This document shows positions 6,623-35,386 of a stretch of 38,774 nt of DNA, in pieces. The DNA is from Deltaproteobacteria bacterium (lineage in GTDB: Bacteria > Desulfobacterota > Dissulfuribacteria > Dissulfuribacterales > QOAL01): the NCBI GenBank assembly GCA_026992735.1, contig JALWYO010000114.1:1-38774 (forward strand), in the 5' to 3' direction. A program made the translations under genes and the position numbers. Position 1 is the stretch's first letter, and every line of letters begins with the position of its first letter. Under the pieces are notes generated by a model. That model did not search any database. It was not told the DNA's origin and was given only the letters and a program-made list of their open reading frames with translations.

Positions 6623-6652
6623 TCCCAACAAACAAAATAAAATAAACATCAT

Positions 6653-6813
6653 GGGGTAAGCGTTCACAAGGCACCGCATCTGCTGTGTTGGCGGGCGCTT
6701 GAAGTACAGGAAGTACGACTGCGCGCCCGCCGCCTTACATCTGCGGCACCCTGTAAACGCTTACAGAATGGGATTATATACACTAAAGCCCATTGGAACC
6801 TGTGATCAGTTAC
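6653..6813 (+). mobile_element. MITE-like element, copy 1 (IS66-type ends, 8-bp target duplication)
   Basis: This 161-base non-coding element contains a 109-base imperfect palindrome (6656-6764, GTAAGCG ... CGCTTAC) with a G/C-rich stem, plus a 49-base tail ending in GATCAGTTAC. It is flanked by a perfect 8-base direct repeat, AACATCAT (6645-6652 and 6814-6821). A second copy lies inverted at 16660-16816, with the same 109-base palindrome length and about 90% identity by eye. Ends reading GTAA/TTAC and 8-base target duplications are features of the IS66 family, so this is probably a non-autonomous derivative. No transposase is in the window. The rest of the gap to 7064 has no gene and no convincing promoter. 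Confidence 0.8.
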
Positions 6814-7064
6814 AACATCATAGGTCACTTGGATATTGAAAGGCCTGTCCAGCCCGATATCCGGCCCTGTTCCATTCCCGTCATTAACTCTTTCCGCGTT
6901 TCTTCATTAATATATTCTGACTGCCAAAGGATTCACCCATACCGGCAATGGCAGCGAAAGCTGGGCATTGACCTGGCCCGTTATCTCTTAAATATGCAAA
7001 TACAAATTGGCATATCTCCCTTGAATAATGTAACATTGAACAAATTCATGGGAGGTGTGGAGAC

Positions 7065-15564: not shown

Positions 15565-16515
15565 ATGCTCAGGCTCGGATTGCTATTCGGAGGAAGATCA
15601 GCAGAACGCAAGGTTTCTCTTGCCGGGGCCATGGAAGTGGAAAAGGCCCTTGACAAGAACAGATACGAAGTTCATCGCTACGACGCGGCCACGGACATTC
15701 CCAGGCTTGTGGCTGATGCGGCCGATCTGGACTGCGTGTTCATCCTGCTGCACGGCAGGTACGGCGAAGACGGGACGGTCCAGGGAATGCTGGAACTGCT
15801 GGAACTGCCCTACCAGGGCTCAGGGGTTCTTGGCAGCGCCCTTGCCATGGATAAACACCTTTCCAAGGTGACGTACAGGGCATCAGGCATCCCCACGCCG
15901 GACTGGCTCCACGTTGACAGGGCATCCAGGCCCGCTGATGCTGAAATCGTTGAAAAAATAGGCCTGCCGTTCATCGTAAAGCCCTGCAACCAGGGGTCCA
16001 GCGTGGGCATAAAAATCATCAAGGCAAGGGAAGAGGCCAAAACCGCCATCCAGGAGGCATTCAAGTGGGACAGCGAGATCATCGCTGAAAAATTCATCAC
16101 CGGCCGGGAGATCACCGGGGGAGTCATAGGGCTGGACGACCTCAAGGCACTCCCAATAGTGGAAATAATACCAGACCCGGAGAAATACAAATTTTTTGAT
16201 TATGAAGCAAAATACAAGAAAGGGGCCACAACAGAGATATGCCCGGCAGAACTGCCAGAGGAGACAGCAAGAAAAGCTCAGAAAATTGCCATTAAGGCCC
16301 ACAGAGCACTGAAATTATCCGGCTACAGCCGCACAGACATGATTATTGACGAGTCAGGGCAGATATTTGCCATAGAAACCAACACCATTCCCGGGATGAC
16401 TCCCACAAGCCTGTTTCCCCAGGCAGCAGCGGCAGCGGGCCTTGATTTCAGCAGCCTCATAGACAGGCTTGTAGAGATGGCTATGCAGAGAAGCTGGAAG
16501 GAAGACAGAATATGA
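15565..16515 (+). CDS. ddl: D-alanine--D-alanine ligase
   Basis: Ddl joins two D-alanines with ATP for the peptidoglycan stem peptide, in the cytoplasm. The 316-residue ATP-grasp protein shows LLFGGRSAERKVSLAGA at the N-terminus, LHGRYGEDGTVQGMLELL, the ATP-grasp segment PFIVKPCNQGSSVGIKII, FDYEAKYKKG with the tyrosine typical of D-Ala-D-Ala (rather than D-lactate) ligases, and the terminal IETNTIPGMTPTSLFPQAA. The ATG at 15565 is preceded by GGAGAGG. It is divergent from the Nudix-Mla operon and is not in a mur/fts cluster, which suggests a stand-alone transcription unit. Confidence 0.96.
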   Translation: MLRLGLLFGGRSAERKVSLAGAMEVEKALDKNRYEVHRYDAATDIPRLVADAADLDCVFILLHGRYGEDGTVQGMLELLELPYQGSGVLGSALAMDKHLSKVTYRASGIPTPDWLHVDRASRPADAEIVEKIGLPFIVKPCNQGSSVGIKIIKAREEAKTAIQEAFKWDSEIIAEKFITGREITGGVIGLDDLKALPIVEIIPDPEKYKFFDYEAKYKKGATTEICPAELPEETARKAQKIAIKAHRALKLSGYSRTDMIIDESGQIFAIETNTIPGMTPTSLFPQAAAAAGLDFSSLIDRLVEMAMQRSWKEDRI

Positions 16516-16651
16516 GTAACTGTTCAGCGTATTAACGGTAATGCGGGTTCGTAAATGATCTTGTTTTCCCGTTCCGGTGAATAATTTCTTGTTTTTCTAA
16601 GTGGCACTCCAAAACAAGACCATTCACTATGCTGAATATGAATAGATACGA
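16516..16651. other. Gap after ddl with a weak inverted repeat
   Basis: The ddl-rarA convergent gap (16516-16825) contains no gene. Its first part holds an inverted pair, GATCTTGTTTT (16557-16567) and AAAACAAGACC (16611-16621), with a loop of 43 bases, too long for a classic terminator. The second part is occupied by MITE copy 2. Confidence 0.35.
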
Positions 16652-16659
16652 ATATGAGT

Positions 16660-16816
16660 GTAACTGATCACAGGCTTCAATGGGCTTTACTGTATATTTC
16701 CCTTTCTGTAAGCGCTTGCAGGGTGCCGCAGATGTAAGGCGGCGGGCGCGCAGTCGTACTCTCTGTACTTCAAACGCCCGCCAACACAGCAGATGCGGTG
16801 CCCTGCGAGCGCTTAC
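16660..16816 (-). mobile_element. MITE-like element, copy 2 (inverted relative to copy 1)
   Basis: This 157-base copy is the reverse complement of the element at 6653-6813. The 109-base palindrome is at 16708-16816 (GTAAGCGCTTGCAGGG ... CCCTGCGAGCGCTTAC) and the tail at 16660-16707 begins GTAACTGATCACAGG. It is flanked by ATATGAGT (16652-16659) and ATATGATT (16817-16824), an 8-base direct repeat with one mismatch. The outer inverted ends share GTAA. It sits just after the rarA stop codon, where its hairpin could act as a transcription barrier between convergent ddl and rarA. Differences from copy 1 are scattered substitutions and one indel in the tail. Confidence 0.8.
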
Positions 16817-16825
16817 ATATGATTC

Positions 16826-19659: not shown

Positions 19660-19992
19660 GTCTCCACCTTCCGCATCTGCCCACAGAACACCGCATTTTC
19701 TGTGCCATTGACCACTCGCATAACAGGCAGGGCCATGCCTCCTGCCTTACAGTCAAATCTCATTCAAGCAGACACAAAGTAAATGATCACGGGGCACTGC
19801 CGAGATTTGCTGTGCATTTCCCATTTTGTAAACAGGCGGTTATCTGCAAAAATAACGGCGATTACCCCGTAAGCAATTACACGATGATGGATTATTCCAC
19901 AGCCAAACCATGCTTTCAATTTAAAATTACATGCCTGATGAAATATCCGGGCCATATGAAACAACCACTTAACAGCAAATTGCCTGATGATG
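19660..19992. other. Gap upstream of the symporter gene, with one inverted repeat
   Basis: There is no gene in this stretch. A plus-strand open frame of 143 codons (19653-20084) crosses it, but it lacks a ribosome binding site, runs over the terminator and looks random. AGGCAGG (19725-19731) and CCTGCCT (19741-19747) form a hairpin about 65 bases upstream of the symporter start. I checked for glycine-riboswitch-like motifs and saw none. Confidence 0.4.
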
Positions 19993-35193: not shown

Positions 35194-35270
35194 GGACACA
35201 GATGAACACAGAAACACCGAGATTTTCTTTGTCTTTTATCTGCGTACGAAGTCTGTGTTTATCTGCGTCC
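35194..35270. repeat. Interspersed inverted repeat, GGACACAGATGAACACAG type
   Basis: GGACACAGATGAACACAG (35194-35211) is inverted as CTGTGTTTATCTGCGTCC (35253-35270) with 16 of 18 matches and a 41-base loop. Within it TTTATCTGCGT occurs twice about 23 bases apart. Sequences of this ATCTGTGT/ACACAGAT type are found between genes in many unrelated bacteria, from memory. It sits in the 240-base convergent gap between the glycosyltransferase and marR genes. A short hairpin (GCCTGC ... GCAGGC) right after the glycosyltransferase stop could be part of a terminator. Confidence 0.65.
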
Positions 35271-35386
35271 TCAGTCTTGCATCTGCACCTACCTGTAAGC
35301 AGATACAGAAAGATTTGCACGAACTTATTGAGAAGTTATTTGTGGATGAGTTACACAATTGAGATTAATTGCACATCTGTGGATTT

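Follow-up and report, generated by a model that had tools for sequence, protein, structure and literature searches.

Bacterial MITEs are usually decayed-looking remnants restricted to a narrow lineage. ERIC and RU-1 are palindromic MITEs of enterobacteria, ERIC reportedly duplicating TA, and RUP and Correia are foldback-type MITEs that are short and palindromic, with IS-like ends and an RNA that could form long hairpins. In transposition by Y1 enzymes, neither target duplications of constant length nor fixed GTAA/TTAC ends are expected. The Chunjie MITE of Geobacter uraniireducens, of 235 bp and with about 38 copies, carries terminal repeats and direct repeats (PMC10969869), and the ends of ISPsko1 begin with GTAAGCG (PMC12888890).

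Here we analyzed a short element present in two copies in the window, that is, the whole stretch of 38,774 nucleotides of DNA under study, and followed it through the host genome, its order and its phylum. Taken as a whole, it is very probably a MITE family moved in trans, the arms of its hairpin being kept complementary and its inner hairpins being swapped between families.

The two window copies and their family in the host genome

As the first-pass annotation had described, each window copy was found to consist of a 109-bp palindrome and a tail of 48-49 bp, with 8-bp direct repeats at the borders (Table 1). The arms of the two copies were 92% alike. RNA folding of copy 1 with its flanks gave a z of -6.1 relative to shuffles on the minus strand, and another genomic copy reached -8.1 when folded as DNA and -8.5 as RNA, also relative to shuffles.

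Table 1. Coordinates of the two copies and of other short elements in the window
Feature	Position	Strand	Remarks
Copy 1, left target-site duplication	6645-6652	.	AACATCAT; followed by 3 extra G at 6653-6655
Copy 1, whole element	6656-6813	+	palindrome and tail
Copy 1, 109-bp palindrome	6656-6764	+	each outer arm begins as GTAAGCG terminal repeat; loop GTAC-AGGAA-GTAC
Copy 1, one-sided 49-nt tail (type A)	6765-6813	+	terminates in CCTGTGATCAGTTAC, a third terminal-repeat-like end
Copy 1, right target-site duplication	6814-6821	.	AACATCAT
Separate 134-bp element	16516-16649	.	ends GTAACTG...GATAC; perfect GAATATGA duplications at 16508-16515 and 16650-16657; inner inverted repeat
Copy 2, target-site duplication	16652-16659	.	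ATATGAGT
Copy 2, whole element	16660-16816	-	flanking 8-mers ATATGAGT and ATATGATT, 7/8 alike
Copy 2, 48-nt tail	16660-16707	-	
Copy 2, 109-bp palindrome	16708-16816	-	
Copy 2, target-site duplication	16817-16824	.	ATATGATT (7/8)
Probable decayed remnant of second subfamily	35236-35339	+	GTATCTG palindrome arm and tail ending TTGAGAAGTTAT; weak model match, E 0.23

The 134-bp element, located at the ddl stop codon, is unrelated to copies 1 and 2 but has the same kind of ends; it lies directly beside copy 2, so that the two insertions fall no more than about 10 bp apart. A 102-bp segment of the window (19779-19880) that runs from GTAA to TTAC matches the hairpin model weakly (E 0.015); its flanking 8-mers do not match each other, and it is possibly a decayed element.

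A BLAST search of the host genome (2.31 Mb, 137 contigs, 98.85% complete) with the palindrome returned 40 matches, two of which were halves of a single copy, giving about 39 copies. These halves (L036, at the end of G000:C7, and L039, at the start of C2) mark a site at which the assembly was broken inside a hairpin copy because of the palindrome, the contig folding back on itself. The bare 109-bp palindrome was rejected as a unit, its apparent case being this folded-back contig end. The element is non-coding, measures 158-160 bp and has the ends GTAAGCGCTCACAGG / GTAACTGATCACAGG, and thus agrees with a MITE in size, copy number and terminal inverted repeats. Two tail types were present, A (AGAATGGGAATATATACAGTAAAGCCCATTGGAACCTGTGATCAGTTAC) and B (AGAATGGGGAAGGTGTGCAACAAAACTCGACATAACCCTGTGATCAGTTAC). 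In all type B copies except three, the internal end of the palindrome reads CGCTTAT, and therefore the terminal GTAA is broken there.

Among the 36 copies having both ends, duplications at the exact ends were identical at 8/8 positions in 21 and at 7/8 in seven (28/36 in total), whereas none was found in 1260 mismatched (random) end pairings. Two more copies (copy 1 and L019) carried an 8/8 duplication with 1-3 extra bases alongside, three showed only a shifted 7/8 match, and three had no duplication. The 8-mer was different at each insertion site, as it is for target duplications of MITEs, and no common flanking DNA was found among the loci of the host genome. The loci retrieved from relatives contained no flanks homologous to those of the host copies at which an empty site could be seen. 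The number of palindrome matches together with the excess of duplications over random pairing excludes a chance origin and, because the flanks are also unrelated, the copies represent a real MITE family. The genome search and flank alignment thus bear out the proposal of a non-autonomous mobile element with GTAA ends, present in many copies that each have an 8-bp duplication of their own, as well as the independent insertion of both window copies rather than a duplication of the region. Of the two observations that had been named as speaking against this proposal, conserved flanks did not appear, but three copies without a duplication did, and three others had only a shifted 7/8 match.

About 20 truncated copies in the same genome (e.g., L041-L053 and L057-L059) had kept the outer end of the tail but neither the hairpin nor the left end, and had no target duplication; remnants with the left end only were far rarer. 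Hairpin-triggered deletion is a possible cause of these tail-end copies. A second subfamily of about 142 bp (L064, L065, L066, L078, L079) combines a GTATCTG palindrome with the tail GTAACTTCTCAATAAGTCCGTGCAA and shows 8-bp duplications, and in L040 a tail of this second subfamily is joined to a palindrome of the first.

Origin of the ends and the mobilising transposase

The copies had also been proposed to be IS66 derivatives. If so, their ends would descend from IS66 and would have been moved by an IS66 TnpC/TnpB since lost from the host genome. Both the GTAA ends and the 8-bp target duplication are those of an IS66-derived MITE, and the outer 9-10 bp of the element (GTAAGCGCT) match the IS66 ends of its relatives, which read GTAAGCGCTTCATTAAACCCC or GTAAGCGCTTATTTAACCCC. 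An intact IS66 of 2448 bp in G007 is flanked by an 8-bp duplication, TATTTTAC, and the GTAAGCG start of ISPsko1 (PMC12888890) points in the same direction. However, neither TnpC (PF03050) nor TnpB (PF05717) was detected in the 137 contigs of the host assembly, nor was TnpC in three genomes of the same genus. The proposed comparison of ends with the inverted repeats of an IS66 in the same genome found no IS66 there and hence no full terminal repeats to match, and the IS66 of relatives showed no sequence likeness to the element beyond its outer 9-10 bp. Within the order, the presence of IS66 was not associated with that of the element (7/32 v 1/14, p = 0.40). Moreover, some related subfamilies have GTAT ends, and the ends of some that share the architecture and the 8-bp duplication are GTATTTG or GTAACTATCC. 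The IS66 origin therefore stood as far as ends and duplication length are concerned but not in the enzyme, in the inner sequence or in co-occurrence, and we hold it to be possible, at slightly less than an even chance. IS66 is the only named family that we could tie to this end type and is a plausible guess for the mobiliser.

No autonomous partner, i.e., a long terminal-repeat pair around a gene, was found among the end-pattern matches of the host genome, whose 137-contig assembly could miss one, or among 192 sequences. Such partners are known for many MITEs, but not every MITE needs to have one. Two candidates were discarded. A 203-bp MITE with GTAACCGTTCACGGGG ends from G039, taken as the query in a search for a longer parent, matched only itself. 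A 722-bp end pair in G035 was not flanked by duplications that match and probably arose by chance. G035 and G039 also contain short elements with GTAACCGTTCACGGG-type ends that measure 201-214 bp (L137-L141, L145, L147), several with exact 8-bp duplications and some being long hairpins of unrelated sequence.

Distribution, paired changes and exchange of the hairpin

By DNA search, 24 of 60 related genomes carry the element. With a covariance model, the hairpin was detected in 32 of 46 genomes belonging to the order and, in a sample of 297 genomes from the phylum, in 28 (E <= 1e-5). Copy counts from the model were inflated because both strands of the palindrome get reported, and its results were taken for presence only. 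Since the palindromes, when scored on their opposite strand, also reached as much as 54 bits, weaker matches in distant genomes (to about 55 bits) were left out of the evidence and do not prove common descent. Neither the element nor its core was found in plasmids, E. coli genomes or viral contigs. Throughout the order, and in further orders, the same plan was seen again: a terminal repeat followed by the hairpin, an internal terminal repeat, the tail and a third terminal repeat. Exact 8-bp duplications surround palindrome plus tail within the order (G022) and in other orders (G234, G277, G248, G147, G186), and every intact copy examined had used its two outermost ends. The tails in these genomes are lineage-specific, 24-51 nt long and nearly all end in TTAC (the family f2 tail reads, for example, AGTTCGGTGGGTTGCGGTAAACGGGCGTTGTAACCCCGTGAACGGTTAC), and most palindromes there measure 109 nt.

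Paired changes in the stem exceeded every shuffle at all three levels analyzed. In the host genome, they occupied 32 cells compared to 11.7 in shuffles. Across the order, both sides had changed in 22/40 pairs (9.9 in shuffles) and in 71 cells (21.7), and in the wider set, drawn from several orders of the phylum, in 26/35 pairs (15.7) and 116 cells (35.0). Controls with a slid structure gave far lower values (8-20 cells in the wider set). Private substitutions mirrored in single copies (e.g., L005, L012, L014, L036) are the signature expected of template switching between arms, which two papers describe as a way in which arms become homogenised (PMC8604942, PMC8794818). Such switching alone, without any function, could account for arm complementarity. 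The unpaired CATCTGC segments on either side of the stem, however, were not homogenised and are conserved; given that template switching would erase them, they suggest a constraint beyond it. In L086 (G040), the hairpin loop is inverted relative to the tail and a 27-nt tail lies on the opposite side, an arrangement that template switching between arms would give.

The strong compensatory change and the conserved loops would also suit a hairpin that transposition has spread but that acts mainly as RNA, be it a terminator, an mRNA stabiliser or a regulatory RNA, as would its location near gene 3' ends (median of 26 nt to the 3' end of the neighbouring gene; 12 copies in convergent and 2 in divergent gaps, as called by a simple heuristic ORF caller). 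This context also fits plain promoter avoidance, being the usual footprint of promoter-excluded elements; a terminator role is possible, but the stem has no T-run beside it. Rfam models gave no match to the hairpin, and wobble-type mismatches counted by strand (94 v 61 and 47 v 68) showed no one-strand bias and hence no sign of selection on the RNA of one strand. We consider a primarily RNA-based role unlikely. A REP/ERIC-like palindromic repeat moved by a Y1/RAYT-type enzyme would likewise be palindromic, intergenic and abundant and would have no partner in cis, but instead of the GTAG-type tag and missing target duplication of REP/RAYT repeats the element shows constant 8-bp duplications and fixed GTAA/TTAC ends, which makes this origin very improbable. 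Segmental duplication of a larger locus, with nothing in its favour, is refuted by the unrelated flanks and the site-specific 8-mers.

In G004, G006 and G027, repeats of a family that ends differently (CATTTGAAGCCGCAAGGGGCTCGC...) have an inner hairpin with 83-86% identity to the one in an f2 copy of the element; in the best case, identity between the f2 copy and this family of unrelated ends was 86% (59/69). The copy compared from G234, in turn, had kept the outer arms (17/18 and 16-17/18) with only 68-69% identity in the inner hairpin. Since inner hairpins and outer arms disagree in this manner, ends and hairpins have partly separate histories. From these alignments, hairpin and ends appear to be exchangeable modules, and one clear case supports a swap between families. 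In other orders, additional repeat families (L173-L177 in G147, L179-L180 in G126) combine unrelated ends with similar inner hairpins, which does not imply common origin; L172, also in G147, has the usual GTAA ends. It is doubtful, though conceivable, that the inner hairpin is more than an inverted-repeat accident, namely a conserved folded module, kept by paired mutations phylum-wide and traded between unrelated mobile-element families, whose structure would be read by a host factor or a transposase.

For the MITE family moved in trans, we propose that a trans-acting DDE-type transposase, with an IS66-like enzyme as the best guess, would cut at the terminal GTAA and join the element to target cuts staggered by 8 bp, yielding the 8-bp duplications observed. 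Template switching on the folded strand would transfer mutations from one arm to the other, so that the arms stay complementary; the folded shape probably aids movement or persistence of the element, and inner hairpins appear to be swapped between element families that differ in their ends. What is new here is the conservation of a plan that includes a third, internal end, together with the long-term covariation in the hairpin and what appears to be its exchange between families. Across families and orders of one phylum, ends and tails vary, but the plan, a 109-bp hairpin with covarying stems and a short tail bearing a third end, is kept. Owing to this constancy, two questions can be put to the test: can a hairpin serve as a functional component of a DDE transposon, and are its arms matched through selection or through template switching?

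Comparison with known systems

Like ERIC and RU-1, the element is an intergenic imperfect palindrome of about 100-170 bp with many copies in many genera and no known transposase, but it duplicates 8 bp of the target instead of the TA of ERIC and carries a one-sided tail with a third end. It shares with RUP and Correia the short palindromic form, the IS-like ends and the potential for long RNA hairpins, whereas the ends and target duplications of those elements differ from its own, and we know of no internal third terminal repeat in either of them. With the IS66 family it has in common the outermost GTAAGCG bases and the 8-bp target duplication, the latter seen in a relative's intact copy. In contrast to IS66, it is non-coding and possesses a hairpin and tail, and its inner terminal repeat reads TCACAGGG where that of IS66 reads TTATTTAACCCC. 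Compared by description only, the Chunjie MITE, although longer (235 bp compared to 158-160 bp), is alike in belonging to a bacterium of a related lineage, in its roughly 38 copies and in its terminal and direct repeats (PMC10969869).
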